Source: Pseudomonas sp. Marseille-Q3773 (GTDB lineage: Bacteria; Pseudomonadota; Gammaproteobacteria; Pseudomonadales; Pseudomonadaceae). From it: DNA of 64,000 bases. The stretch is taken from positions 4,774,001-4,838,000 of the forward strand of contig NZ_OU745390.1 in the NCBI RefSeq assembly GCF_916618955.1. Reading direction: 5' to 3'. Positions within the stretch are counted from its first letter, which is position 1. The number at the start of each line of letters is the position of its first letter. Shown here in pieces: positions 6,272 through 55,485 of the stretch. The translations under genes were made by a program, and so were the position numbers. The notes beneath the pieces are model-generated. The model was not told where the DNA came from, searched no databases, and was given only the letters and a program-made list of their open reading frames with translations.

Positions 6272-8449
6272 TTACAACCCGTTACGCGCCTTGAACTCGC
6301 GGCGACGACGGTGCAGTACCGGCTCGGTGTAACCGTTCGGCTGCTTGCCACCTTCCAGCACCAGTTCCACAGCTGCCTGGAATGCGATGTTGTCGTCGAA
6401 GTTCGGCGCCATCGGCCGGTACAACGCGTCACCTGCGTTCTGCTGGTCGACCACCACGGCCATGCGCTTGAGGCTCTCGACCACCTGTTCCTGGCTGACC
6501 ACGCCGTGACGCAGCCAGTTGGCCAGCAGCTGGGCCGAGATGCGCAGGGTGGCGCGGTCTTCCATCAGGCCGACGTTGTTGATGTCCGGCACCTTCGAGC
6601 AACCCACGCCCTGGTCGATCCAGCGCACCACATAGCCGAGGATGCCCTGGGCATTGTTGTCCAGCTCGTTGCGGATCTCTTCGGCCGACCAGTTGGTGTT
6701 GGCCGCCAGCGGGATGGTCAGGATATCGTCCACCGATGCCGGGGTACGCGAGGCCAGTTCACGCTGGCGCGCCTGCACGTCAACCTTGTGGTAATGCAGG
6801 GCATGCAAGGTGGCGGCGGTCGGCGATGGCACCCAGGCGGTGTTGGCACCGGCCAGCGGGTGAGCGATCTTTTGCTCCAACATGGCCGCCATCAGGTCCG
6901 GCATGGCCCACATGCCTTTGCCGATCTGGGCTCGGCCTTGCAGGCCGGTGGCCAGGCCAACGTCGACGTTGTTGTTCTCGTAGGCACCGATCCACTTCTC
7001 GTTCTTCATGGCACCCTTGCGCACCACGGCGCCGGCTTCCATCGAGGTGTGGATCTCGTCGCCAGTGCGGTCGAGGAAGCCGGTGTTGATGAACACCACG
7101 CGCTCGGCGGCTGCCTTGATGCAGGCCTTGAGGTTGACCGTGGTGCGGCGCTCCTCGTCCATGATGCCGACCTTGACGGTGTTGCGCTTCATGCCCAGCA
7201 GGTCTTCGACGCGGCTGAAGATCTCGGCGGCGAAGGCAACTTCTTCCGGCCCGTGCATCTTCGGCTTAACGATGTACACGCTGCCGGTGCGGGTGTTCTT
7301 GCGGCTGGTGTTGCCGTTGAGGTTGTGCAGGGCGATCAGGTTGGTGAACAGGCCGTCCTGAATGCCTTCGGGGATTTCGTTGCCCTGGGCGTCGAGGATC
7401 GCCGGGTTGGTCATCAGGTGGCCGACGTTGCGCACGAACAGTAGCGAACGGCCGTGCAGGGTCACGCTGCCGCCGTTGGGCGCGGCGTACTCGCGGTCCG
7501 GATTCATGGTGCGGGTGAAGGTCTTGCCAGCCTTGCTGACGTTTTCTGCCAGGTCGCCTTTCATCAGGCCCAGCCAGTTGCGGTAGACGACCACCTTGTC
7601 GTCGGCATCGACAGCGGCGACCGAGTCTTCGCAGTCCATGATGGTGGTGAGTGCCGATTCCATCAGGATGTCCTTCACGCCGGCGGCGTCGGTGCTACCG
7701 ACCGGGGTGCTGGCATCGATCTGGATTTCGAAGTGCAGGCCGTTGTGCTTGAGCAGCACGGCAGTCGGCGCGCCGGCATCGCCGTGGAAGCCGATCAGCT
7801 GGGCGTCGTCCCGCAGGCCGCTGTTGCTGCCACCCTTGAGGGCAACAATCAGCTTGCCACCTTCGATGCGGTAGCCGGTGGAATCGACATGCGAGCCGGC
7901 TGCCAGTGGTGCGGCTTCATCAAGGAACGCGCGGGCAAAGGCGATGACCTTGTCACCGCGTACCTTGTTGTAGCCCTGGCCTTTCTCGGCTCCGCCTTCT
8001 TCGCTGATGGCATCGGTGCCGTACAGCGCGTCATACAGCGAGCCCCAGCGGGCATTGGCAGCGTTCAGGGCGAAGCGGGCGTTCATTACCGGTACGACCA
8101 GCTGCGGGCCGGCCATGTGGGCAATTTCTTCGTCCACGTTCTGTGTGGTGGCCTGGAAATCGTCAGCTTGTGGCAGCAGGTAGCCGATTTCCTGGAGGAA
8201 TGCTTTGTAGGCTGCGGCGTCGTGGGCCTGGCCTTTGCGTGCCTGGTGCCAGGCGTCGATCTTGGCTTGCAGCTCGTCGCGCTTGGCGAGCAGGGCTTTG
8301 TTCTTTGGAGCGAGGTCATTGATGATCTTTTCTGCACCGGCCCAGAACTGCTCGGCGACGATGCCAGTCCCGGGGATGGCTTCGTTGTTCACGAAGTCGT
8401 ACAGGACCTTGGCGACCTGAAGGCCACCGACTTGAACGTATCCAGTCAT
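6272..8449 (-). CDS. glcB: malate synthase G
   Basis: Condenses glyoxylate with acetyl-CoA to give malate in the glyoxylate bypass and glycolate utilisation; cytoplasmic, Mg-dependent. The ATG at 8449 ([20 protein letters not shown]) gives 725 aa, the normal length of the monomeric G isoform. Recognisable family stretches include [49 protein letters not shown] and the C-terminal [27 protein letters not shown]. It appears monocistronic, with a 450-bp leader/promoter region upstream. A close relationship to Pseudomonas GlcB is very likely. Confidence 0.97.
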
Positions 8450-8899
8450 TGCTTGCCTCACTCTGCTCAGCTATTTCGCTCTTCTGTATTAAGCCTGTAG
8501 CGCTTCTCTAAACACGGCACCAGTGCATGCACCCGGGGAAGCCCGAGCGCGGCTGGGTGCGGCCTGCCAGACCGGCTGGCAGACAGTGTGCGTATTTTCA
8601 CAGGCGCCTTGGCAGACATCCAAACGACGTTTTGTAGTCCGCGCCACGGGATACTACATGAAGCAGTAGGCGGGGCAAAATCAGACTAAAAGCGCCGTTA
8701 TGCGACCCGTTGGTCGCGTATGGTCACGCTGGGAGTGGGTATGTTCGCAAAAAACAGGTGGATTGTTCCAGATAAATCTTGAAACAGTACACGATTCGTT
8801 ATGCAAATTGCCCTGCGGCAGGTTGCCGCGCCTTGCCTATACTGAGTCGATCGCCTGATTTCCCGCCACCCGGCGCGGTCCGACAACGAGGAAGGGCTT
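8450..8899. other. 450-bp divergent intergenic region between glcB and the gcvR-like gene
   Basis: Holds the promoters of both divergent genes. An inverted repeat TGTAGT-N14-ACTACA sits at 8633-8658 and may be an operator, but the regulator is unknown. No convincing ORF or RNA gene was seen here. Confidence 0.5.
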
Positions 8900-11671: not shown

Positions 11672-12436
11672 CTACGCGGGAACCCCGATCAACACGTAAG
11701 ACGGATGAAACTGCACCCGTACCGTACTGCCATTCGCTACCCGGTGCTCAGCCAGCCAGGCCGCTTCGGCAAACGCACACAGCGTCTGCCCGTTGCCCAG
11801 CGCCAGCCGCACCTCGCTCGGCCCGTCAGCCTCCGCCAGCATACCCTCCACCGTCGCCTCCAGGCAGTTGTCACCCGTTTCGACCTCTTCCCCTGCCGCC
11901 AGCAACCGTACCCAACCGGCCTTGAGCAGCGCCACCACCATGGTCCCCAACGTCAGCTCCAGCCGCGCAGTGCTGTCGCGGGTGATCAGCGCCTCGATCT
12001 CCAGCCCGCCGCCCAGCGCCAGGCTGACGCGATCATGCCGCCCCTCCCGGCGCAGGCCACTGACCTGGCCCTGCAACTGGTTACGCGCACTGGTGCGCAG
12101 CATCAGGCGACCGAGCAGGTCGAGGTCACTGGATTGCTCGGCCGCTTCGAGCATTTGCGCCTGCAAGGCCTGCAGACGCTGATACAGGCGCAGCACCCGT
12201 TCGCCCTCCGGCGATAACCGTGCACCGCCGCCGCCTCGCCCGCCGGCGCTACGTTCGACCAGCGGTTGGCTGGCGAGGTTGTTGAGCTCGTCGATGGCGT
12301 CCCAGGCTGCCTTGTAACTGATGCCCGCAGCCTTGGCGGCGCGGGTGATCGAACCCTGTTCGGCAACGTGCTGCAGCAGCGCGATACGCTGGGGACGGCG
12401 GGCGATGTGCTGGGTAAGGAGGGTGGGCAGGGGCAT
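11672..12436 (-). CDS. ModE-family molybdate-responsive regulator
   Basis: 254 aa from the ATG at 12436 (MPLPTLLTQHIARRPQRIALLQHV). The N-terminus is a LysR-like winged helix (QGSITRAAKAAGISYKAAWDAIDELNNLASQPLVER, followed by a Gly/Arg-rich wing). The C-terminal half carries tandem TOBE/Mop molybdate-binding repeats (LMLRTSARNQLQGQVSGLRREG and VGDNCLEATVEGMLAEADGPSEVRLALGNGQTLCAFA-like stretches). E. coli ModE (262 aa) represses modABC when bound to molybdate. No mod transporter genes are adjacent, so the targets are elsewhere. Confidence 0.88.
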   Translation of the reverse strand: MPLPTLLTQHIARRPQRIALLQHVAEQGSITRAAKAAGISYKAAWDAIDELNNLASQPLVERSAGGRGGGGARLSPEGERVLRLYQRLQALQAQMLEAAEQSSDLDLLGRLMLRTSARNQLQGQVSGLRREGRHDRVSLALGGGLEIEALITRDSTARLELTLGTMVVALLKAGWVRLLAAGEEVETGDNCLEATVEGMLAEADGPSEVRLALGNGQTLCAFAEAAWLAEHRVANGSTVRVQFHPSYVLIGVPA

Positions 12437-40454: not shown

Positions 40455-41576
40455 TCAGCGTGTTATTTGATAGCGTGTGCTGCGCCCGCCACCGGGCAGC
40501 CGTTCGATACAGCCCTTTTCCAGCAAGTCGCTCAGGTGACGGGTCGCGGTGGCTTTGGATACCTTGGCCACCGCTTGGTACTGAGCGGCGCTGATGCCAT
40601 CTTCAAAGCCACGTTCTCCGCCGTCCAGCAGGCGATTGAGCACTTTGATCTGCTCTACCGACAACGCCTGGCTGCGATGCGCCTGCCAGAAGCGTGCCTT
40701 GGCCAGCACGCGGTCAATACGGGCAAGGGCCTGTTCCAGGCTTTTGAGCAACGTCGCGAGGAACCATTGCAGCCAGGCGGTGATGTCCAGGGAGCCTTTC
40801 TGGCTCGCCTCGAGGATGCGGTAGTAACCGGTGCGGTCATCGAGGATGCTTGCGGACATGGCGTAAAAGCGGATGGCCTGCTGCTCGCCCTGGGCCAATG
40901 CCAGGTCGGTGATTGCGCGCGTGAGGCGACCGTTGCCGTCATCGAAAGGGTGCAGGGTAACGAACCAGAAATGAGCGATGCCGGCGCGTACAAACGGGTC
41001 GAGGCTGGTCTCAGTGCGGCTGCGCTCGAACCAGGCGAGGAATTCCGCCAGTTGCACTTCCAGCCCTGCGCGAGGAGGGGCTTCGAAATGTGCGGTTGGG
41101 CGGTCGATCCGGCCTGATACGACCTGCATCGGCTCATCGCCACGCAGTGCGCCGATGTGTAATGGTCGAGCCAGCAATTGCTCATCGCTGGGGAATAACC
41201 AACGGTGCCAGGTGAACAGTCGCTGTTCGTCCAGCGGTTGCTGGTGGGCACGGGTGGCGTCGAGCAGGAGTTCCGCCAGGCCTTCGGAGCGTGAGGTGGT
41301 GCGGCCTTCCTCGTTCAGCCCCAAGCGCCGTGCCAGTGACGAGCGTACCGAACCGACATTCAGCTGCTCACCCTCGATGGCTGAAGAGGTGATGATGTTC
41401 TGCAGCATGGCATCCAGGCTGCTCTGAACTTCGGTGTCCTTCCCCACCGCGCCGAGCATGCCCAACAGACGTCCCTGGGCCTGACCGCAAGCGCGCAGCA
41501 GCGGTGCGAGCGCTTCGGCTTGCCAGCTGAAGTGTGGCCAGTCGAGCTGTTGCCAGATCCAGAGCGGGTCGTTCAT
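40455..41576 (-). CDS. Fic-domain protein (AMP-transferase) with N-terminal inhibitory helix
   Basis: 373 aa from MNDPLWIWQQLDWPHFSW; the longer start at 41615 would translate the operator. N-terminal DUF4172-type region (WIWQQLDWPHF), inhibitory motif in TSSAIEGE (S-x-x-x-E-G; class II Fic), catalytic loop LHPFDDGNGRLTRAITDLAL with the H-P-F-x-x-G-N-G-R motif, then a C-terminal winged helix (AVAKVSKATATRHLSDLLEKGCI). Fic enzymes usually AMPylate proteins on Thr/Tyr. The winged helix and two operator repeats upstream suggest it represses its own gene. It sits in accessory DNA next to a decayed hicAB pair. The target is unknown. Confidence 0.92.
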   Translation of the reverse strand: MNDPLWIWQQLDWPHFSWQAEALAPLLRACGQAQGRLLGMLGAVGKDTEVQSSLDAMLQNIITSSAIEGEQLNVGSVRSSLARRLGLNEEGRTTSRSEGLAELLLDATRAHQQPLDEQRLFTWHRWLFPSDEQLLARPLHIGALRGDEPMQVVSGRIDRPTAHFEAPPRAGLEVQLAEFLAWFERSRTETSLDPFVRAGIAHFWFVTLHPFDDGNGRLTRAITDLALAQGEQQAIRFYAMSASILDDRTGYYRILEASQKGSLDITAWLQWFLATLLKSLEQALARIDRVLAKARFWQAHRSQALSVEQIKVLNRLLDGGERGFEDGISAAQYQAVAKVSKATATRHLSDLLEKGCIERLPGGGRSTRYQITR

Positions 41577-41585
41577 AAGATTCGA

Positions 41586-41648
41586 TGAGCCGATTAACGA
41601 GCCTATTCGGCTCATGTGGTGAGCCGATAATGAAGGCTATTCGGCTCA
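41586..41648. promoter_or_regulatory. two tandem 29-bp operators upstream of fic
   Basis: TGAGCCGA-N13-TCGGCTCA occurs at 41586-41614 and at 41620-41648, 34 bp centre to centre. The cores are also alike (both contain CCTATTCGG/GCTATTCGG). Three helical turns between centres suggest cooperative binding, likely by the Fic protein's own winged helix. Confidence 0.75.
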
Positions 41649-43555: not shown

Positions 43556-43589
43556 TTGAGACGGGAAATGGCAGGGGCCAGAAACGACA

Positions 43590-43610
43590 AAGCCGCGCAG
43601 TGCGCGGCTT
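43590..43610 (-). terminator. former tRNA terminator at the left island edge
   Basis: AAGCCGCGCA-G-TGCGCGGCTT is followed leftward by T-rich sequence. It matches the hairpin at 55382-55402 except for a paired substitution (CA/TG versus TA/TA) and lies at the same distance from the tRNA repeat. Confidence 0.8.
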
Positions 43611-43616
43611 GTAAGC

Positions 43617-43662
43617 TGGTGGGCCCACACGGACTCGAACCGTGGACCAAAGGATTATGAGT
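43617..43662. repeat. island attachment repeat, left (partial tRNA 3' end)
   Basis: 46 bp identical to 55409-55454, namely the tRNA 3' end from CCA through the anticodon loop. This is the left junction of the integrated island; the 5' half of the tRNA is not present here. Confidence 0.92.
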
Positions 43663-43849: not shown

Positions 43850-44890
43850 TTAATTGGTTGCCGCAATTAGGTGCGGTACCGCTTGCGTAAGCTGGCGTCT
43901 GCACAGTGCTTTGGGTAGCTCGGATGTCACGAATTTTCCATGGTGCTCACTAAGTTCCCCCATCATGATTTCGACACCATCATCACTCAGAGGAAGAACG
44001 ATGGTTCCCGCACAGCAATGGTTTTTTGAGAAACCTTCTGAGTGCTTCACCAGCTTTCGATCAGATTGGCTGGGCAGTGCATCTGCGCAGTTTTTCGAAA
44101 GCTGAGTGCACGCTATGTAAGGTTGTTGAGCCGAAATTGCCTCCCGAGTGCCAGCAACAATTTCTGGTCTAGGAGTACCATGAGAACCTCTGCCCAAAGA
44201 AAACAGCACGAGCTTGGGTTGCACAGCAGAAACAAGATCTTTCGCGAAGGATCTATTGTCAGCGGCCCCACCCGTATGCCCTCCATGATGTGGAAATACT
44301 AATACCTGGGCACGCAAGTCTCTATTTTCGCTAAGCATTATATCCAGGCTATGACGACCGGAGTCCGCAGCTAGCAGACAGACCTGCTCTCCGTTGTGTT
44401 CAATTAACACAACGGCAGACATACTGTTTGCGTCGAGCTTGACGCCATCAGTATGCTCGCCTTCATTGGTCGCTAAACACATTTCCGGTGTTGGGTGGAG
44501 AACTCGAAGAGTTGTATTGGCTAATGTCAGGCTCTGTGGCTGATCAACATGCAATGATGAGTAAATCGCTGTGCCCTGACTCTTCCTAGCATCGCCTGCT
44601 GCAATTCTAAATTGAAACCAAGACTTGGTTTTTCTCAAATCTGGGTTGACATAAACTTGTCTGACTGGTCGATCAGGATTCATTAAGATAGGAATGGCAC
44701 CTGATAGATGATCGCTATCTGCATGTGATATGAGAAGCGCGTGGACCGATTGTATCTTTAGTTCATCTAAAATTTTTGCAACGATGGGACGACCTGGAGC
44801 GTCGATGATAATTGCTTCGTCGCCGTGCTTGATAATGGTGCAGTTTCCGTGTCCAACGTCGAGTATTATCAGCTCACTGCAAGCCATCAT
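43850..44890 (-). CDS. metallo-beta-lactamase-fold protein (ComEC/Rec2 C-terminal-like)
   Basis: 346 aa. It begins ACSELIILDVGHGNCTIIKHGDEAIIIDAPG, as in ComEC-type MBL domains (DVG.G...I). The metal motif is LLISHADSDHLSG (residues 56-61, H-x-D-x-D-H); a second metal site is LVFPHHGGHTGG. No membrane segments, so probably a soluble hydrolase such as a nuclease or phosphodiesterase. It is the last gene of the four-gene operon, overlapping the receiver gene by 17 nt. GC content is visibly lower than in the core genome. Its role in the operon may be that of effector; that is inference. Confidence 0.8.
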   Translation of the reverse strand: MMACSELIILDVGHGNCTIIKHGDEAIIIDAPGRPIVAKILDELKIQSVHALLISHADSDHLSGAIPILMNPDRPVRQVYVNPDLRKTKSWFQFRIAAGDARKSQGTAIYSSLHVDQPQSLTLANTTLRVLHPTPEMCLATNEGEHTDGVKLDANSMSAVVLIEHNGEQVCLLAADSGRHSLDIMLSENRDLRAQVLVFPHHGGHTGGAADNRSFAKDLVSAVQPKLVLFSLGRGSHGTPRPEIVAGTREAISAQQPYIACTQLSKNCADALPSQSDRKLVKHSEGFSKNHCCAGTIVLPLSDDGVEIMMGELSEHHGKFVTSELPKALCRRQLTQAVPHLIAATN

Positions 44891-45566
44891 CCCACTCCGG
44901 TTCTGGCGCGAGTTCTACATTTTCAAAGTACAGGTCGACCTTTTCAGATGTACTTACATTTGTAAGGGCGCTTAATATGCTAGAGCATGAAACTTTGCTT
45001 CGGTGCTCAGGTGAAACCAGTGAAAGCGGGAATCGTACGGTGTCTTTGGCGTTCCAGCCGTGCACTATTGCGTCAATAACCGTTACGCCACCAACATCTG
45101 AAACATCCATGACTTGCAGCAAGGTTCTGTGTAATTTTCGATCGTCGATTTTTCCACGTCGCAGTTCATTTTTACATCTTGCAAATGCGGCACGAAGCTC
45201 TTCAGGCTCATCAGCATCCTCCCGGCGAAGAACTACAGGTAAATTGCTTCGGTGACTTCGTATGGCGATGTCTGCATACTGGTCAAGATATTGGGTCACT
45301 AGCAACGTAGGATGCTTTCTCTCGACTAGTGCAGCTGCTAGCTCTGCGCCTGATATGTCTGCGAAGGCACCATGTCTAAGTCGATGATCGCAGACTGCTG
45401 CATCGGAATTCTTAATTATTAGCTCTGCCAGAGCTGCCAAGCTATCAGCAGCTTCTTGCCGATAAGGATTAAATCGACCGTCCTCTAGGGCATGAATGAT
45501 GGTCTGAGCAGCATCATCATCATCGTCTACAACCGCTACCGTCCTAATTGGTCTCATGGTATTCAT
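44874..45566 (-). CDS. receiver-like protein with unknown C-terminal domain
   Basis: 230 aa. The N-terminal ~125 residues are response-regulator-like: TVAVVDDDDDAAQTIIHAL is the acidic cluster (14-18), AAVCDHRL carries the candidate phospho-Asp near 60, and TLLVTQYLDQY has the switch Thr near 91. The conserved Lys of receiver domains is replaced by Arg in LPVVLRREDADEP. The C-terminal ~100 residues (DVGGVTVIDAIVHGWNAKDTVRFPLSLVSPEHR..) match no output domain known to me. Its ATG overlaps the stop of the ATPase gene (ATGA), and it overlaps the MBL gene. Confidence 0.75.
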   Translation of the reverse strand: MNTMRPIRTVAVVDDDDDAAQTIIHALEDGRFNPYRQEAADSLAALAELIIKNSDAAVCDHRLRHGAFADISGAELAAALVERKHPTLLVTQYLDQYADIAIRSHRSNLPVVLRREDADEPEELRAAFARCKNELRRGKIDDRKLHRTLLQVMDVSDVGGVTVIDAIVHGWNAKDTVRFPLSLVSPEHRSKVSCSSILSALTNVSTSEKVDLYFENVELAPEPEWDDGLQ

Positions 45567-47647
45567 ACGTTGGCTTGGTTTGTTAGTAGAGGGAAAACAA
45601 ATTTGAATTGCGCGCCTGATGTATCTACGTTTGATGCGCTGTATTTGCCGCCTAAATCTAGAACAGAGTCTTTTACAATAGTAAGGCCGAAGCCGGTCCC
45701 TTCTTGTCGAGTCGTTCTTCCAGGAAGCCAGATTTCATTGATGTCCATGTTTATGCCTGGACCATTGTCCTCGATGTCGATTGCCACAGTGTTGCCTTCA
45801 ATGCTCACCATGATTTTTATCTGGCGGTCCTTTGTCCGTGCCCCTGAGCGTTCGAAGGCGCTAACCGAGTTTGTGAGGCAATTTGTAATAATCGTCTCTA
45901 CAAGAGCTTCAGCGCCAAAAATTAGAGCGTCATCAGTTTTGTATGGCGTAAGCAAGAGTTCAATTTTTGCCTGTTCGAGTATAGGGCGCCATAGATCGTG
46001 GAGAGTTTGGATTACCTTGTTAATGTTGACAGCGCCATGACGTCTTTTTTCACGCTTCAAAAAGTCAATTTGCATGGAAGCAAAGCGAGTAAGTCGCTCT
46101 GAACCATTCGCAATGAGGTCAAGAGATGGCTCAATCTGTGATACTACTTCTTCGCCACAGTACTTCTTCACCCTTCGGCGTATCGTCTTTTCGCCCCCGG
46201 CGATTGTCCTTATAGGTTTTCCAATCTCGTGCGCGAATACCGCTGCCGTAGTGCCTGCGGTGGCTAGGGAGCGATAGAGGACTAAATCCTCCCGCGTCGC
46301 ACGGAGTTCCTTCTGAAAATTCTGCTCAAGTCTATCAAGGGCTTTGATTGCCTTTTCTTTCTCTGGCGCTGGCAGAGACTGGGCGATAGTGTCCAGTAAG
46401 TCGGAGCGAGCTTTAGCCGGCTCTTCGCCGGACTGCTGCTTTTGCAAATCCCGGCGAGCTTCAGCATCGCGCAAGCGACGGCGAGCTAGCCAATCCAGTG
46501 CATCTTTTGCGAAGCGACGAATTTCAAAAAATTCATCACTTTCGATGAATCCGAATCGGTCAGTCTTTTGTTTCAGCACACCCTCAGGGTCATCTACAAT
46601 CATCCGGCCGACACTTGTATTAGTCGAGGGGCGCTCCTCTGGGCTTCGGGCTCGCGAAAGGTTCATATCCAACCAGTCGTGTCCAGGGTCACCATATGGT
46701 GGCACCCTGAATTGGCGGTGGTAAAAATGCACGCCCCCAATAACCTTAAGCCAATTTTTGACCTCGCCAATCGTAGAACCACGACCAGCAAAGGCGTTCT
46801 TGTTAAAGATAAAGCTGTAAAGCTCAAAAGTTGCTGGTGGGGCGTTGTACTTTGTTGGGTTCTTTGGTTTTTTTGTGGGCCACTCGTCAGAGTGAGCGCT
46901 GTAAAGCACATCACCCTTGAAATCGAGAACTTCTGCATAGCCCGAGCCATCAGCACGCAGGTTAGCCCTTAAAATATATTCTGCTTCGTCGAGATAGCCA
47001 TTTCTGACCCGGGCTTCCAGTTCAGGAAAGTCTGGCGCTATTAAATTGACCTTGAAGTCGCTTTGTCCACTAAACGGACTAGTAAGCAGAACGATACTTC
47101 GGCCCAATCGGTCGGTTTCGCTTTTCCCAAGAGTACGCTTTATACCTTTCAAGGTCGTCGTAGTTCCTGGTTCGGTTCGACTACTTTTTTCTAAAGGAAG
47201 GCCGACTTCCTCTACGACTTTGGCGTTGTCGTACTTGCTCCATTCGATAGTTATTGAATACGCTTCATCTGTTGGCGAGTCTTCATGTCTCGTCACCATC
47301 TCAACAGAGGAACCTGCTCTCAACGCAGCGAGCCTTCCCAGCCCTTTATCCCCTACAGTACGTCGGCCTTTGGGCGTAAGCTTAGTGCTTTCTTTAGAAG
47401 ATCCACCCAGCACTAACCAGTTATTAAGTATCTGCTGAGAAGTCATTCCTGAACCATTGTCGGAAATAACTATGGTGCCGCCGTTGGCTTTGTCAAGCTT
47501 AATCTCGACAGTGCATTCTTTAGCATCAGCATCGTAAGAATTACGAATGAGCTCAATAATTGCTTGGTCGAGGTTAGGAACCAGCTCCTCGCCTAATCGC
47601 ACAAGAATAGATGGGGCAAATCTAAATCCTAGTGGTGGCGACTCCAT
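45563..47647 (-). CDS. dual GHKL ATPase: Hsp90/MORC-like plus histidine-kinase-like
   Basis: 694 aa with two ATP-binding modules. Module 1 (about 1-330): N-box IIELIRNSYDADAKECTV (Asn 36), DNGSGM (63-68) and GDKGLGRLAAL (99-109), as in Hsp90, MutL and MORC proteins. Module 2 (about 440-694): a coiled-coil, H-box AVFAHEIGKPI (His near 473), N-box IITNCLTNSVSAF, G1 IEDNGPGI (627-632) and G2 GTGFGLTIV (near 650), as in histidine kinases. No membrane segment, so cytosolic. 15 nt after the methyltransferase gene and overlapping the receiver gene by 4 nt. The pairing suggests an ATP-gated sensor that phosphorylates or controls the receiver protein. Confidence 0.82.
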   Translation of the reverse strand: MESPPLGFRFAPSILVRLGEELVPNLDQAIIELIRNSYDADAKECTVEIKLDKANGGTIVISDNGSGMTSQQILNNWLVLGGSSKESTKLTPKGRRTVGDKGLGRLAALRAGSSVEMVTRHEDSPTDEAYSITIEWSKYDNAKVVEEVGLPLEKSSRTEPGTTTTLKGIKRTLGKSETDRLGRSIVLLTSPFSGQSDFKVNLIAPDFPELEARVRNGYLDEAEYILRANLRADGSGYAEVLDFKGDVLYSAHSDEWPTKKPKNPTKYNAPPATFELYSFIFNKNAFAGRGSTIGEVKNWLKVIGGVHFYHRQFRVPPYGDPGHDWLDMNLSRARSPEERPSTNTSVGRMIVDDPEGVLKQKTDRFGFIESDEFFEIRRFAKDALDWLARRRLRDAEARRDLQKQQSGEEPAKARSDLLDTIAQSLPAPEKEKAIKALDRLEQNFQKELRATREDLVLYRSLATAGTTAAVFAHEIGKPIRTIAGGEKTIRRRVKKYCGEEVVSQIEPSLDLIANGSERLTRFASMQIDFLKREKRRHGAVNINKVIQTLHDLWRPILEQAKIELLLTPYKTDDALIFGAEALVETIITNCLTNSVSAFERSGARTKDRQIKIMVSIEGNTVAIDIEDNGPGINMDINEIWLPGRTTRQEGTGFGLTIVKDSVLDLGGKYSASNVDTSGAQFKFVFPLLTNQANV

Positions 47648-47662
47648 GTGGTTTGCTCCAAT

Positions 47663-48952
47663 TCAATCTACGGTCCAGGGTAGGCTCTTAATTGCACCTA
47701 CAGTCAAGTGACGACATCTGATACGATGATTCAGCCATGCGTCGGTACGGTTATCATCTAATACGTTCAAGAGTAGGCGACATGTTGATATCTTTTTGTC
47801 CTTTGGCCTGAGGATCAAAAGGTGATTCTCTACCAAGACTTCCTCTCGCGAGGCGAATAATGTGCTTCTTGCTCTTTTTTTGTCAGAAGGGCTAGAGGTT
47901 CGGCGCACTATCACAAAAGGACCACGCTCCACTCGGCAATTATATGTCGCAAACTCTGATGCTGCTTTTATTTCTTCGCCAACAACTGCATTTTTGGCAG
48001 TTAGATAGCCATAAAGCTTACCGTTGGTGGGGGTTCGGTGAGGCACTACAGGTCCGACAGATACTGAGAAAAAGTCTTCTACGCATTGCTCGCTGCAGAC
48101 TTCTTGTTCGGGCTCTATCAGGACATCCTCGGGGAGTTTCGATGTGGCGACAAGTATGGCTACGTCAATGTCAGCTTGAGTGCCAAAGGCGCCAAATGGC
48201 TCGAAAGAAGTAACATTAACTAAATTTGTTAATTCGGTTCTGAATTTAGCGTAGGAGCTGCCACTTCTCAGTACATCCGGAATCAATGCGAAGATGCCCA
48301 CTCCAGGCGGAGCGATCCGTGTAATATGTTCTAGGTGAAGTGCCGCTGCTGACCGTTTTCCTTTTCCGGTAAAGCTATTTTCAGGTGCCTGGATTCGCTG
48401 GTAAGGCGGGTTCATGACTACACAGTCGTTGGGCATCAGCTGGAGATCAGTTTCAAGTGCGTCTCCGACTAGAAAACTATTCGGGAGCTCTTTAAAAAGA
48501 ATCTTATTGGATTGTCCCTTTTCAGCAGCGTGGCGGTGAAAGGCGAGAGCTTGAATTCTCATCCAAGCTATATCTAAGAATGATTTTCTTAAATCGACGG
48601 CAACTAGCCTTTCCGCCCAGTCCCTAATCGTTTCGCTAGCGGTTTTTTTCAGCGGCAAAGAGCGACATGCTTCAAGAAGTAAGTCACCAACACCAACACT
48701 TGGATCAACGAAACGTTGCCAGCCAGTGAGATCATGTCCTGCCAAAATTTTCTTCGCCCACGAGGCGCCTGAGAAGAAGACTCCGTGCCTGCGTCGGTCA
48801 GACAATGACAAGGTGCTGTAGACGAAATCGGTCGCGTGGCCATTCATGAGGTCGCTTACCAGCTTCTCAGGGCACAACGTCCCTTCATCCAGGTCGCCTG
48901 CCGTCATCAGCGCGGTGGCAAAGGAGGAGAGGGGGATTTCGCCGTTCATCAA
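47663..48952 (-). CDS. N6-adenine DNA methyltransferase
   Basis: 429 aa. The order is RRRHGVFFSGASWAKKIL (motif X-like), SAM motif I FVDPSVGVGDLLLEAC (82-96), LVAVDL acidic motif II, and catalytic motif IV CVVMNPPYQRI (NPPY 181-184), which marks gamma-class N6-adenine enzymes. The C-terminal half (about 220-429) could be target recognition. No restriction endonuclease or specificity subunit gene is nearby. It is the first gene of a four-gene unit, and a 640-bp leader with repeated palindromes lies upstream. It could mark self DNA for the downstream ATPase/receiver/MBL system. Confidence 0.82.
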   Translation of the reverse strand: MMNGEIPLSSFATALMTAGDLDEGTLCPEKLVSDLMNGHATDFVYSTLSLSDRRRHGVFFSGASWAKKILAGHDLTGWQRFVDPSVGVGDLLLEACRSLPLKKTASETIRDWAERLVAVDLRKSFLDIAWMRIQALAFHRHAAEKGQSNKILFKELPNSFLVGDALETDLQLMPNDCVVMNPPYQRIQAPENSFTGKGKRSAAALHLEHITRIAPPGVGIFALIPDVLRSGSSYAKFRTELTNLVNVTSFEPFGAFGTQADIDVAILVATSKLPEDVLIEPEQEVCSEQCVEDFFSVSVGPVVPHRTPTNGKLYGYLTAKNAVVGEEIKAASEFATYNCRVERGPFVIVRRTSSPSDKKRARSTLFASREEVLVENHLLILRPKDKKISTCRLLLNVLDDNRTDAWLNHRIRCRHLTVGAIKSLPWTVD

Positions 48953-49321: not shown

Positions 49322-49596
49322 GAAATTGGATGTACGGCACGCCAAGAGATAAAGCCACAATGGGATAATTAATTTTGCCGATGTATAATATTTTGGTTAA
49401 TTAAACGAGCGCTGCAACCGCCTCGCTGATGCTTTGCGCATTATGGGCGCGGCCCTTAAAAGACGGGGCCTACACCGGGTAAGACTGGCGCATAGTCACC
49501 CCAAGAACGGTGCAGCCGTGCTGGGTGCGATTCCTAAACAGATCGACAGGCCGGACAGACGGCCCAGTGTTCACCATGTCCAATGGAGAGGTGACT

Positions 49597-50361
49597 ATGG
49601 GTCTGTTCAAGCGTCTCGCCTTCAAAGGCGTCCGGCCATTTAGTTTCGCGACCACGCTCGCGTTGGTGCTCGGCTCGCAGCAGGGATACGCGCAAATCCC
49701 TGTAACCGTTACTACCCAAGTGACGGATTCCCCCATGACTGTTGCAGAGTTCGCATCTAACGCGACTCGCTGGGCCCAACAGGTTCAGCAGATGACATCT
49801 CAAATTGATCAGATGAAGCAGCAGTACGGCGCGCTCACGGGGTCGCGTGGGCTCGGTCGAGTATTCGATGACCCGCAGCTGCGAGATTATCTGCCTCAGG
49901 ACTGGCAGGCTGTGTATGACGCAGTGAAGCGTGGCGGCTATTCAGGCCTGAATGGTCGTGCTGGCTCGATCTACGCGGACAACAAGGTGTTCGATGCCTG
50001 CGAAAGCCTGGTTCAGGATCAGCAGCGCGATGCTTGCCGAGCACAGGCGGTGAAGCCTTCGCAAGATAAAGCGTTTGCGCTGGAAGCCTATGAGCAGGCT
50101 GCAGCCCGACTACGCCAGATTGACCAGCTGATGGGACAGATCAATCAAACGCAAGATCCCAAAGGGATCGCAGAGCTGCAAGGTCGCATCGCGGCAGAGC
50201 AAGCGATGATCCAGAACGAGCAGACCAAATTGCAGATGTTCCAAATGGTCGCTGAGGCTGAGGGCAAGATCCAGGAGCAGCGACAACGGGAATTGAATGC
50301 CCAGGTGCTCGACAAGAGGGGCTACAAGAATCGCGAAGTGCTGAACCTGGGAGGCAACTGA
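49597..50361 (+). CDS. VirB5-family T4SS protein
   Basis: 254 aa from the ATG at 49597 with GGAGAG 6 nt upstream. A signal peptide (GLFKRLAFKGVRPFSFATTL..GYAQ) is followed by a long coiled-coil (VAEFASNATRWAQQVQQMTSQIDQMKQQYGALTG), as in minor pilin VirB5/TrbJ proteins. The C-terminal part is again coiled-coil (LRQIDQLMGQINQ to EGKIQEQRQRELN). Its last 17 residues, LDKRGYKNREVLNLGGN, resemble the tail of the EexN-like protein two genes on. First gene of an operon of four T4SS-related genes; no VirB4/B8/B9/B10 follow. Confidence 0.82.
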   Translation: MGLFKRLAFKGVRPFSFATTLALVLGSQQGYAQIPVTVTTQVTDSPMTVAEFASNATRWAQQVQQMTSQIDQMKQQYGALTGSRGLGRVFDDPQLRDYLPQDWQAVYDAVKRGGYSGLNGRAGSIYADNKVFDACESLVQDQQRDACRAQAVKPSQDKAFALEAYEQAAARLRQIDQLMGQINQTQDPKGIAELQGRIAAEQAMIQNEQTKLQMFQMVAEAEGKIQEQRQRELNAQVLDKRGYKNREVLNLGGN

Positions 50362-50854: not shown

Positions 50855-51105
50855 CAGCCTCTCGTTTCTCAATTGCCGTTTTGTTTCTGCTCACTGGCTG
50901 CGGGGCGGATGAACCGGTCCATTCTGTCGATTGGTACAAAGCCCACAGCTCGGAAAGGGATATCCGAATATTGGAGTGCGAGCGACATGCCGGGACTCTG
51001 GCCCTTACGCCGAACTGCGTTAATGCCAAGCAGGCCAGGAATGAGCAGCAGCTTGATCAGCGCGGCTATCGGAAGCGCGAAATGCTGAATTTGGAGGGGC
51101 AATGA
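50851..51105 (+). CDS. EexN-like entry-exclusion lipoprotein
   Basis: 84 aa. A lipoprotein signal (SRFSIAVLFLLTGCGAD) with the lipobox LTGC; the mature part VDWYKAHSSERDIRILECERHAGTLALTPNCVNAKQAR follows the EexN pattern (.YY.AHP.ERA..L..C..NPGEL..TPNC.NA). EexN-type proteins block entry of related conjugative elements in recipient cells. The C-terminal LDQRGYRKREMLNLEGQ resembles the VirB5-like protein's tail (11 of 17 identical). Translationally coupled to its neighbours (ATGA overlaps on both sides). Confidence 0.8.
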   Translation: MTASRFSIAVLFLLTGCGADEPVHSVDWYKAHSSERDIRILECERHAGTLALTPNCVNAKQARNEQQLDQRGYRKREMLNLEGQ

Positions 51106-52187
51106 CCATGGAGTCCAATTTTTACGAATGGGTAGGTGGCTCAATCGACTCGGTGTTGAACGGCTACGTGCAACTCATGGCACATAGTGTCATTGATAAC
51201 TCCTCGGGCTTGTTCGTTGCTAGCGGCGGCCTTTTCTTCATGATCCTGGGCCTTCTGTCCGTCGGTGGCTTCATCGAGCATCCTCTCCCGCATGTCTTCA
51301 AGCTCATGTTGAAATGGGTATTCATCGGCGCATTGGCACTCAATGCTGATACGTACCTTGGTTGGGTCGTGGAAGCGATTCGCGGCCTGGAGGTTGGCTT
51401 GGCAGATGCGTTCTCGCCAAATGGCAAAGGTGTGGCTGCCACATCGGTGTATCAGGTGATTGATAGAGCCATGACCGATGGATTTGATATCGCTTCCGAT
51501 CTGATTGCTCGCGCCGGACGTCGTGGCATGACCGAGATAGGCATGATTCTTTATGACTGGCTTATTGCAGGAACGATGATCATCGCAACATTCCTGATTA
51601 CGCTGCCCGCTGGAGCGATGATCATCACGGCCAAGGTGCTGTTGGCGTTTTTGCTGGGGTGCGGACCACTGTTCATCGCACTGCTGCTGTTTGGGCAGAT
51701 GACCAGCAAGTGGTTCGATCAATGGTTCGCCCAGGTGATGACCTACATCATTCAATGCGCAGCGATCACCTCAGTGCTTACGCTGGGGATGAAGTTCTTT
51801 TCGAAAATGCTGGCCGATGTGCAGCCCACCGCTGGAAACGGCCCAGCGACCGACATGCTGGAGATCCTCGCGTTGAGTGGAATCGTGCTCTATATGGTTT
51901 ATCAGGCTTACTCATTGGGAGGTCAGCTTGCAGGTGGTCTGTCGTCCAGTGCGATCACATTGCGGCAGATGACTCAGGCTGCGTTAAACCCAGCCAAGGC
52001 GGTCTTCAACACAGTTAATCCGATGTCAACGCGTCGTGACCTGCAGTCGGGCATGATGACGACTGCGAGAGGTTTGAATCATGTGATCGCAGGGAACAGT
52101 GTTTGGAATCCCGCCTACCGGCAGCATGTCATGCAGAACCTGGGCAAGAACTGGGGTAGGGCGAGAGGAGGGAAGGTCGGCAGTTAA
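51102..52187 (+). CDS. VirB6/TrbL-family inner-membrane T4SS protein
   Basis: 361 aa polytopic protein: SSGLFVASGGLFFMILGLLSVGGFI, LMLKWVFIGALALNAD, WLIAGTMIIATFLITLPAGAMIITAKVLLAFLLGCGPLFIALLLFGQ, IIQCAAITSVLTLGMKFF and LEILALSGIVLYMVYQAY. The block of hydrophobic segments around LLGCGPLFIALLLF with a following conserved W (SKWFDQWFAQ) is VirB6-like. It forms part of the translocation pore with VirB8/B10, which are absent here. Start ATG 51102 overlaps eexN (ATGA); 51108 is possible. Confidence 0.85.
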   Translation: MTMESNFYEWVGGSIDSVLNGYVQLMAHSVIDNSSGLFVASGGLFFMILGLLSVGGFIEHPLPHVFKLMLKWVFIGALALNADTYLGWVVEAIRGLEVGLADAFSPNGKGVAATSVYQVIDRAMTDGFDIASDLIARAGRRGMTEIGMILYDWLIAGTMIIATFLITLPAGAMIITAKVLLAFLLGCGPLFIALLLFGQMTSKWFDQWFAQVMTYIIQCAAITSVLTLGMKFFSKMLADVQPTAGNGPATDMLEILALSGIVLYMVYQAYSLGGQLAGGLSSSAITLRQMTQAALNPAKAVFNTVNPMSTRRDLQSGMMTTARGLNHVIAGNSVWNPAYRQHVMQNLGKNWGRARGGKVGS

Positions 52188-54220: not shown

Positions 54221-55282
54221 TTATTTAGTTCCTAGTTTGTCTAGCTTGTGAACTAACTCTTCAGCCCGCAGATGAGTGTAACGCTTGAGCATCTGCATCG
54301 ATTTATGCCCGCTGATTGCCGAGACTTCTTGATCTGAAAGGCCGCCCTCAACCAGTCTACTCACGGCTTCGTGCCGCAGATCGTGAAAACGGAAGTCCGG
54401 CACGCCAGCCTTTTCCTTGATGGCGGCCCAGATCTTGGTGAACGCATAGGGGCGACGCTTTCCATCACGCCCGGGCTCACCGAAAAAAACCAGATCGCAG
54501 TCAATTGGCCGCACGGGATTCGCCAAGGCGACGCGGAAAACCTCGGTAGCGAGCTTCGTCAACGGAACCGTGCGAGCACTATCATTTTTTGTATCCGACA
54601 GCCGGACGATCCGTTTTTGGACATCCACCTGTGATCGGCGCAGGCCTGCGATCTCTGATGCGCGCATACCCGTTGCCAAGGCTATCTGGACGATCCAGCC
54701 CAGCATTGGATTGCTGTGCTTGCCCACAGCGGCCATAAGGCGCTTTTCCTCGTCAGCCATCAGGCGCCTGTTACGACCTTCACCGGGGCTCGGTTTTCGA
54801 ATGTTGAGCACTGGGTTAAAGGTGAGGCCAAGTCCCCACTCCTGAATTGCGACTGTGAACAGGTGGCTGAGTAGGGCAAGCTCCAGCCGCACAGTGTTAT
54901 TACTCGTGGGTTGGCCGCGGTTGGTCAGCGAGCCCAGACGTGTATCGCGATAATTGGCGATCACCTCGGATGACAGAGCTGCAAGCGAATACTTTCCCAG
55001 GTGCTGGATCAGCTGCTGAGCCTTGGTCGCCTCGGCCTTCTGCGTGGTGGGCTTCTTGGTAGGGCTAACTTCGCGCAGATATCGCTGCAGCGCATTTTCG
55101 AGTGTAAGTCGCTCGGACCCGCTGCGCTGGATATAGACACCCCGCACCATTTCATCTTCGGTGCGTCGTGACCAATCCTCGGCGTCACGTTTGGTACGGA
55201 AGGTTTTGGCGTTGGTCGGCCATCCGGTCTTGCGGATGACGGCCTTCCAGGTGCCGGCAGGGGTTTTAACGATTGTGGCCAT
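54221..55282 (-). CDS. int: tyrosine recombinase (island integrase)
   Basis: 353 aa from the ATG at 55282 (MATIVKTPAGTWKAVIRKTGWPTNAKTF). The arm-binding and core-binding domains occupy about 1-160; the catalytic domain shows Arg in ALATGMRASEIAGLR, the H-x-x-R box FHDLRHEAVSRL, His in ISGHKSMQML and the Tyr nucleophile in KRYTHLRAEEL. It lies 127 bp from the tRNA repeat it presumably uses, its start beside a TGTACCT pair. It carried the 11.8-kb island into the tRNA 3' end. All catalytic residues are intact. Confidence 0.93.
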   Translation of the reverse strand: MATIVKTPAGTWKAVIRKTGWPTNAKTFRTKRDAEDWSRRTEDEMVRGVYIQRSGSERLTLENALQRYLREVSPTKKPTTQKAEATKAQQLIQHLGKYSLAALSSEVIANYRDTRLGSLTNRGQPTSNNTVRLELALLSHLFTVAIQEWGLGLTFNPVLNIRKPSPGEGRNRRLMADEEKRLMAAVGKHSNPMLGWIVQIALATGMRASEIAGLRRSQVDVQKRIVRLSDTKNDSARTVPLTKLATEVFRVALANPVRPIDCDLVFFGEPGRDGKRRPYAFTKIWAAIKEKAGVPDFRFHDLRHEAVSRLVEGGLSDQEVSAISGHKSMQMLKRYTHLRAEELVHKLDKLGTK

Positions 55283-55318
55283 CTGAAGGACTCCAAAGGC
55301 GTGCAAGCGAAGCCGCAC

Positions 55319-55336
55319 TGTACCTAATTTGTACCT
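55319..55336. repeat. right pair of TGTACCT repeats
   Basis: TGTACCT-AATT-TGTACCT, with the same 11-bp period and orientation as the pair at 43784-43801. It overlaps the int promoter region. Confidence 0.6.
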
Positions 55337-55381
55337 TCGGACCATAGGACTGATCCGGCTGCCACAAACCCAAAAAGCCGA

Positions 55382-55402
55382 AAGCCGCGTAATACGCGGC
55401 TT
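55382..55402 (-). terminator. tRNA terminator
   Basis: AAGCCGCGTA-A-TACGCGGCTT followed on the minus strand by a T-rich stretch; 6 nt beyond the tRNA CCA end. Confidence 0.85.
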
Positions 55403-55408
55403 CAAGGT

Positions 55409-55454
55409 TGGTGGGCCCACACGGACTCGAACCGTGGACCAAAGGATTATGAGT
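55409..55454. repeat. island attachment repeat, right (inside the intact tRNA)
   Basis: 46 bp identical to 43617-43662, forming the 3' half of the complete tRNA. Right junction of the island. Confidence 0.92.
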
Positions 55455-55485
55455 CCTCTGCTCTAACCGACTGAGCTATAGGCCC
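55409..55485 (-). tRNA. tRNA with CAT anticodon (Ile2 or elongator Met)
   Basis: 77 nt on the minus strand, GGGCCTA..TGGGCCC-ACCA, with an encoded CCA. The D-arm GCTCAGTCGGTTAGAGC, anticodon loop CTCATAA (CAT) and T-arm GGTTCGAGTCC fold normally. The acceptor and anticodon stems look more like tRNA-Ile2 (lysidine-modified CAU) than elongator tRNA-Met; both are called for this locus in databases, as I recall. The 3' half is the island's attachment site and has been restored by the insertion. Confidence 0.93.

Follow-up and report, generated by a model that had tools for sequence, protein, structure and literature searches.

A candidate immune operon of Pseudomonas in which a two-component phosphorelay may gate a nuclease

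What do four closely packed genes at the end of an integrated island in Pseudomonas sp. Marseille-Q3773 do, and how might their products work together? The genes lie in a stretch of 64,000 nucleotides (contig NZ_OU745390.1 of NCBI RefSeq assembly GCF_916618955.1, positions 4,774,001 to 4,838,000 of the forward strand; hereafter the window). An earlier note, made from the DNA letters alone, had seen in them an operon for an N6-adenine methyltransferase, a dual GHKL ATPase, a receiver-like protein and a metallo-β-lactamase (MBL) hydrolase, possibly an undescribed defence system. We find a role in defence likely, and the four-gene set is probably an undescribed variety of bacterial immunity. Our best explanation, to which we give a somewhat better than even chance, is a mobile anti-phage or anti-plasmid system in which a His-Asp phosphorelay would gate a nuclease, and which would be restriction-like with interchangeable nucleases; the wiring is a strong hypothesis drawn from sequence comparison. 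All four genes were verified as minus-strand open reading frames (ORFs) between 48952 and 43850, in the following order.

47663..48952, minus strand: N6-adenine DNA methyltransferase, 429 amino acids (ORF, domain search, alignment)
45563..47647, minus strand: histidine kinase, 694 amino acids (ORF, domain search, alignment, predicted structure)
44874..45566, minus strand: receiver protein, 230 amino acids (ORF, domain search, alignment, predicted structure)
43850..44890, minus strand: ComEC-type MBL hydrolase, 346 amino acids, a putative nuclease effector (ORF, domain search, alignment, PDB sequence relatives)

Strand, order and junctions proved to be as first described, with a 15-nucleotide (nt) gap between methyltransferase and kinase, a 4-nt overlap between kinase and receiver and a 17-nt overlap between receiver and MBL genes. 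The operon is indeed AT-richer than its surroundings (47-50% GC in 1-kb windows at 44-49 kb, against 58-68% in 1-kb windows at 1-37 kb), and the gene families originally named are backed by Pfam matches together with the predicted fold of the receiver. The kinase opens with a GHKL ATPase module (HATPase_c_3, residues 26-149), followed by a middle alpha/beta part (~175-365), a long helical part that carries the H-box His473, and a C-terminal HATPase_c domain (580-687). Its residues E32, N36, D63, His473, N589, N593 and D627 are kept in all 37 aligned sequences of its clade. The receiver protein combines a CheY-like domain (~1-137, with Asp14/15, the phospho-acceptor Asp60 and Thr91) with a small beta-rich C-terminal part whose strands lie at 146-219. 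Its Pfam match is weak (Response_reg PF00072, E=4.7e-4, below cutoff) and is backed by the predicted fold, for which structure comparison effectively covered residues 4-137. Asp60 is likewise kept in 37/37 clade sequences, and the phospho-His of the H-box, the N-box and the receiver Asp expected of a phosphorelay (His473, N589, N593, D627 and Asp60) are thus present throughout the clade.

Do these genes belong together in other genomes? A scan of one genome per species with the kinase alignment gave the best 80 of more than 80 loci, the 35 closest of which (L003-L037) have kinases of at least 36% identity. Receiver and MBL families lie within 3.5 kb of the kinase in 31 of these 35 loci, and 21 also have the methyltransferase; the ordered co-occurrence that the earlier note had proposed as a check is therefore seen, and it spans phyla, with record titles naming Pseudomonadota, actinobacteria, Dehalococcoidia, Phycisphaerae, Armatimonadetes, cyanobacteria and Geomonas. 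The exceptions are L030, L031, L033 and L034. The L033 contig ends directly after the kinase gene, and at L030 the receiver gene is followed, with a 4-nt overlap, by a PIN-domain gene (11875-12282; PF13470, E=1.6e-18) in the MBL position, tentatively a further effector swap, seen at a single locus, where it could be a stray toxin gene. An apparent receiver-MBL fusion at L011 (a 525-amino-acid ORF), which would have spoken directly for contact between the two proteins, was rejected, as its first part is apparently out-of-frame sequence upstream of the MBL start, overlapped in another frame by a 232-amino-acid receiver ORF. None of the 45 more distant genome loci has a receiver or MBL profile match of at least 30 bits within 3.5 kb of the kinase.

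The kinase, receiver and MBL proteins also vary in step: their distance matrices correlate at r 0.915 (kinase-receiver), 0.913 (kinase-MBL) and ~0.91 (receiver-MBL), values reached by 0 of 999 permutations, and the association of the three exceeds chance. The kinase-methyltransferase correlation is r 0.78. At E<=1e-80 the kinase occurs in one of 398 genomes of the genus (one genome per species), and at E<=1e-25 the MBL protein occurs in one of 398 genomes of the phylum (five best candidates scored per genome), in each case the window's own. The four-gene set is thus a rare accessory, quite different from the mainly unlinked housekeeping genes that the earlier note had named as the outcome at odds with its proposal. 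In the protein database, a P. monteilii kinase matches that of the window at 98%, and further close kinases are listed for Pseudomonas species such as P. aeruginosa, P. viridiflava and P. gingeri.

On what might such a relay act? The MBL protein has Lactamase_B as its sole Pfam domain (E=3e-8), and the residues of its metal site (H56-x-D58-x-D60-H61, D176 and H201) are kept in 26/26 aligned sequences, as are four cysteines (C261, C268, C293 and C330; window 43850-44110) that lie beyond the ComEC-aligned stretch and possibly form a second metal site. Among proteins of solved structure, those nearest to it in sequence are ComEC chains (PDB, E=1.6e-19). The MBL domain of ComEC, which has MBL motifs in common with the window protein, is described as a Mn-dependent DNase (PMC12455585). 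Unlike that domain, the window protein stands alone, at 346 amino acids. MBL nucleases have been recruited repeatedly as defence effectors, among them HamM, which requires proteolytic activation (PMC12799240).

The MBL protein is read as a nuclease mainly because nucleases recur in the position next to the kinase-receiver core. Eight loci with distant kinases, four from genomes and four from viral contigs (L039, L046, L060, L081 and L089-L092), carry the same methyltransferase family (412-523 bits), then a kinase 25-27% identical to that of the window, a receiver of ~210 amino acids and, in the MBL position, an HNH gene. This order holds in 8/8, the HNH gene of L046 being cut by the contig end. 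Two of these HNH proteins were scanned against PADLOC, and both are similar to the Septu protein PtuB (best E=2.1e-11 and 1.5e-13). When the distant loci were searched with hidden Markov models built from these eight, which are themselves counted, 12 of the 45 from genomes and 9 of the 74 viral ones proved to have an HNH gene next to the kinase; a C5 methyltransferase relative (at least 25 bits) lies nearby in 24 of 45 and 27 of 74, respectively. A third arrangement is found in the same genome (L163:3600-9360; C1:2243599-2249359), where a C5 methyltransferase and a dual-ATPase kinase precede a 435-amino-acid gene in the receiver position, which has no Pfam or PADLOC match, and a divergent restriction enzyme gene of the AspBHI/Mrr kind, the AspBHI type being methyl-directed. 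With ComEC as closest solved relative and HNH or AspBHI/Mrr nucleases beside the equivalent kinase, the proposal that the MBL protein is a nuclease effector gains support. In a midpoint-rooted kinase tree the eight HNH-type loci form one clade (support 1.0); in the methyltransferase tree, where deep branches are short, they do not, which suggests that methyltransferases have moved between MBL- and HNH-type systems.

The methyltransferase is of Eco57I type by Pfam (E=6.6e-4, below the Pfam cutoff). The TTG called as its start lies at 48952, and an ATG at 48949 is likelier. It contains DPSVGVGDLL and NPPY, which we take to be motifs I and IV, and a conserved C-terminal set of RRTSxP, ENH and IRCRHLT. 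The N-P-P of NPPY is invariant in 21/21 aligned sequences, so that the catalytic motif expected of a type II restriction-modification methyltransferase is present. Of the 31 loci with kinase, receiver and MBL genes, 21 also have a cognate methyltransferase; its gene lies upstream in the same orientation in 16, upstream and divergent in three, and downstream in two.

The set is found on mobile DNA in several settings. All four genes are present at five viral-contig loci, of which L083 and L084 share 99% identity across the system, and a further such locus (L085) has receiver and MBL genes, with the kinase and receiver frames broken. A plasmid search with the kinase as query matched 756 records, nearly all distant, and the three at ~40% identity were inspected. 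The four genes stand in the same order on plasmids of Burkholderia and Hymenobacter (methyltransferase 493/429, kinase 748/782, receiver 133/160 and MBL 375/379 bits, respectively). On a Pseudanabaena plasmid, kinase and receiver genes are accompanied by an MBL gene (L187:9824-11777) that an IS982 transposase gene interrupts. A distant relative of the kinase, full-length and at ~24% identity, is encoded on many Campylobacter plasmids, where a response regulator is part of its annotation, and two phage records in INPHARED contain distant kinase relatives as well.

Is the company that these loci keep that of defence genes? A flanking set of 165 proteins of 200-900 amino acids was drawn from 36 loci, and 91 of them, from 21 loci, were scanned, 15 cyanobacterial and actinobacterial loci and five proteins of the included loci being left out. 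The 91 proteins match 136 PADLOC families at E<=1e-15, a number of overlapping families rather than of proteins that includes the matches of the L032 methyltransferase discussed below, which may itself belong to the system. By comparison, two families (mad3, three members; dGTPase, one) are matched by 91 control proteins, a random choice from the 94 encoded on 20 arbitrarily placed stretches in ten single-contig genomes. Among the 25 families listed of the 136 are a CBASS-type oligonucleotide cyclase, PD-T4-6, SoFic, PDC-S28, PDC-S01, type II methyltransferases and DrmMI/DrmMII; the matches to these last, the DISARM methyltransferases, may reflect a general methyltransferase instead. The Burkholderia plasmid copy lies ~6.5 kb from a gene annotated as an anti-phage HerA helicase, with an integrase between them, and the Hymenobacter copy adjoins a patatin phospholipase gene, with a ThiF-family gene ~5 kb away; we take these last two to be parts of CBASS. 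Together with the PADLOC contrast, these CBASS-type and HerA neighbours agree with a defence context.

In the window, the operon occupies the far end of an 11.8-kb tRNA-Met island. Two direct-repeat copies of 85 nt (43578-43662 and 55370-55454) bound the island; they are 86% identical overall and agree fully over their last 46 nt. Repeat, tRNA and adjoining tyrosine integrase confirm that the island is tRNA-borne, as first proposed.

43617..43662, no strand assigned: att-site copy that marks the distal end of the island; its 46 nt are those of the 3' part of tRNA-Met (direct-repeat comparison)
55409..55485, minus strand: tRNA-Met, integration site and proximal boundary, overlapped in its 3' part by the second repeat copy (tRNA call and repeat)
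54221..55420, minus strand: tyrosine integrase PF00589, adjoining the tRNA; coordinates are those of the longest ORF, and the protein probably starts further in (Pfam)
49510..50361, plus strand: T4SS family PF07996, conjugation gene within the island (Pfam)
51102..52187, plus strand: TrbL/VirB6, conjugation gene within the island (Pfam)

The PF07996 and TrbL/VirB6 genes are mobile context outside the four-gene system. Just outside the island, the window also encodes a Fic-domain protein with DUF4172 (40455-41615, minus strand); SoFic models match two of the 91 scanned flanking proteins of related loci as well.

How would the four proteins act together? We propose that the N-terminal Hsp90/MutL/MORC-like ATPase of the kinase would be a clamp-type sensor that detects invading nucleic acid and perhaps how it is methylated. 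Sensing would lead to phosphorylation of His473, the phosphate would pass to Asp60 of the receiver, and the receiver, via its beta-rich C-terminal part, would activate the MBL protein directly. The MBL protein would then degrade DNA, either the invader's or that of the entire cell, and the methyltransferase, where present, would protect host DNA or hold the sensor off. A broader claim is that this is a distinct class of immunity, a phosphorelay-gated restriction in which a MutL/MORC-like clamp reads the state of DNA, a His-Asp transfer follows and the receiver directly arms a nuclease, while methyltransferases (N6 or C5) and nucleases (MBL, HNH, AspBHI/Mrr and perhaps PIN) are exchanged between lineages around one signalling core. 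We put forward this wider view tentatively, at somewhat less than an even chance.

A number of observations weigh against the proposed phosphorelay-gated system, several of them concerning the methyltransferase. Its C-terminal region is well conserved in the alignment, not variable like a typical specificity region, and 9 of the 31 kinase-receiver-MBL loci, eight from cyanobacteria and one from Marinomonas, are without an adjacent cognate methyltransferase (at one of these, L009, only 179 nt of upstream sequence are present, so that adjacency cannot be judged). At L032 a different type II methyltransferase (7062-8813; PADLOC E=1.8e-169, with only 50 bits to the profile of the window's family) lies directly upstream of kinase, receiver and MBL genes, possibly as a replacement. 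Using the methyltransferase alignment as query, we found no strong family member in these ten genomes, the nine and that of L032: eight gave matches, at best 40 bits, against 412-568 bits for family members with a similar profile. This argues against a dedicated strong homologue elsewhere in the methyltransferase-less genomes, several of which are drafts or metagenome-assembled genomes and in which other methyltransferases could serve. Because 9 of 31 loci lack this methyltransferase next to the kinase and the search gave no strong family member in their genomes, self-methylation by it cannot be essential everywhere. The enzyme may mark self, as earlier proposed, or may be a modulator or antidote, not an obligatory self-mark.

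Other points on the same side concern the signalling proteins and the surroundings. The actinobacterial loci L031 and L034 have a close kinase and neither receiver nor MBL gene. (The two share a similar upstream gene pair, of 508/521 amino acids with weak methyltransferase matches, at 54/58 bits, and then of 326/361 amino acids.) In the kinase, G629 is kept in 31 and changed in 6 of 37 clade sequences, and the structure model is of middling confidence (pLDDT 72), its comparison effectively covering core residues 465-690. In the receiver, Asp60 is kept in 50 and lost in 4 of 54 sequences of a wider homologue set, the lysine expected at position 115 is Arg in 17, Lys in 9 and another residue in 11 of 37, and Thr91 is Ser in 15/37. 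The control proteins come from the window's genus, family or order, a narrower range than that of the flanking set. Moreover, when ten flanking proteins were scanned singly, three had a PADLOC match at 1e-10 (the L032 methyltransferase, and a cyclase and a PDC-S28 protein that flank the Dehalococcoidia system on its two sides) and seven had none. Finally, phosphorylation could switch the MBL protein off instead of on.

This last point leads to the first of three other explanations, in which the logic is reversed: the kinase would keep the receiver phosphorylated in healthy cells and thereby hold the MBL nuclease off, and infection, through a drop in ATP, inhibition of the kinase or loss of the methyltransferase, would free it, so that the outcome is abortive infection and not selective restriction. 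Such a logic, of the guard or toxin-antitoxin kind, fits the methyltransferase-less core of the cyanobacterial and Marinomonas loci better than methylation-based discrimination of self from non-self does, and two conserved ATP-binding modules would confer sensitivity to nucleotide state. Retention of the cognate methyltransferase at most loci argues the other way, as do the sister effectors, HNH (PtuB-like where tested) and methyl-directed AspBHI/Mrr, which fit DNA targeting, and we consider this reversal unlikely. Greater doubt attaches to an accessory regulatory two-component system without an immune role, whose methyltransferase and MBL genes would be ordinary regulated or metabolic ones, the latter encoding, for example, a phosphodiesterase or small-molecule hydrolase. 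The names in the source records do read this way ('sensor histidine kinase', 'CheY-like chemotaxis protein', 'MBL fold metallo-hydrolase', 'ComEC/Rec2 family competence protein'); MBL folds have many substrates, and Apyc1, a nucleotide-cleaving enzyme, is among the weak PDB matches of the MBL protein. However, the receiver has no DNA-binding output domain by Pfam, and the rarity of the set, its presence on viral contigs, plasmids and an integrated island, the defence genes that flank it and the nucleases that take the MBL position in sister systems all make a purely regulatory role improbable.

The kinase might also be the restriction enzyme itself. The set would then be a variant of type II restriction-modification, with a GHKL protein that, like BbrUII/HgiDII, recognises or cuts DNA together with the methyltransferase, and with receiver and MBL proteins as accessories. 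The N-terminus of the kinase does match the BbrUII/HgiDII family NF050001 (E=5.5e-21, residues 14-185) and PADLOC REase_II models. That match is confined to the N-terminal ATPase region, however, and reaches 74.8 bits against a family cut-off of 550, and Pfam finds no nuclease domain in the kinase. Nor is the methyltransferase always paired with the nuclease, as the nine loci without it show, and the conserved core is kinase-receiver-MBL, not kinase-methyltransferase. We regard this as the least probable of the explanations weighed here.

If a phosphorelay does gate a nuclease, is such a system already known? The best-described Detocs effector is PNP, which destroys ATP, whereas the window set has a ComEC-type MBL protein, and the sensor part of the window kinase is an Hsp90/MutL-type ATPase, unlike that of Detocs; Detocs is not known to include a DNA methyltransferase. 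Like the window set, this three-gene defence family, named for the two-component system (PMC11249213), encodes sensor kinase, receiver and effector together, and it is the nearest experimentally tested logic, set apart by the differences just described. A scan against PADLOC 2.0 (2023) gave weak partial hits, the best at 40.6 bits, with none for the receiver at E<=1. The four-gene set was not recognised in the open-licence PMC literature searched, an absence that the search does not prove, and the available parts of PMC12137116, PMC12839542 and PMC10952713 contain no match to it.

Nearest among published descriptions is a computational prediction of 2021, a HEF_HK/Response_reg_2 two-component set near restriction-modification genes (PMC8011034). 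It shares with the window set a soluble kinase with N-terminal HATPase_c_3, DHp and C-terminal HATPase_c, an adjacent receiver-like gene and linkage to methyltransferase and nuclease genes, a legend naming C5 and N6/N4 methyltransferases, HNH and Vsr as neighbours. It stresses C5-cytosine methylases (common, not universal), where the window operon has an N6 Eco57I-type enzyme instead, and the words 'lactamase', 'metallo' and 'phage' are absent from its main text as available (PMC8011034). The window kinase and receiver have no PF19191/PF19192 match at E<=1, in a search with no working positive control, and PF19191 has no match in the window's own genome, a negative without weight, as it has none in 14 control genomes either. 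The L163 arrangement, with its adjoining C5 methyltransferase, is closer to this predicted set in gene content and has no PF19191/PF19192 match at E<=0.01. The word 'undescribed' in the earlier note consequently holds for the four-gene set as compared with PADLOC 2.0 and the open PMC literature, and needs qualifying for the kinase-receiver pair, a similar version of which had been predicted, and for two-component defence, already represented by Detocs.

Two further families share single parts with the window set. The Trypsin-MBL modules of Hachiman, AVAST, Lamassu and DRT likewise use an MBL nuclease akin to DNA-uptake nucleases as defence effector, HamM being inactive until triggered, but there the activator is a trypsin-like protease, encoded as a fusion downstream of the MBL gene (PMC12799240), where the window set has the phosphorelay. 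Pfam finds no protease domain in the four window proteins, and the four invariant C-terminal cysteines are a further difference from those nucleases. MORC and paraMORC proteins are, like the window kinase, GHKL ATPases genomically tied to DNA methylases and nucleases; their neighbourhoods feature helicases, Vsr and RE-fold nucleases, and 'receiver' and 'metallo' are absent from the text available (PMC2292703).

Should the proposed phosphorelay-gated system be borne out, it would represent restriction-like immunity placed under a classical two-component switch that acts on a nuclease rather than on transcription, and it would bring together, within a single modular system, signalling of the Detocs type, restriction-modification methylation and nuclease effectors of the MBL fold. 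For the dual-ATPase kinases, a family so far described computationally (PMC8011034), there would then be a function open to experiment, and the sister systems would show, as a natural experiment, how effectors are exchanged while the signalling core stays the same.

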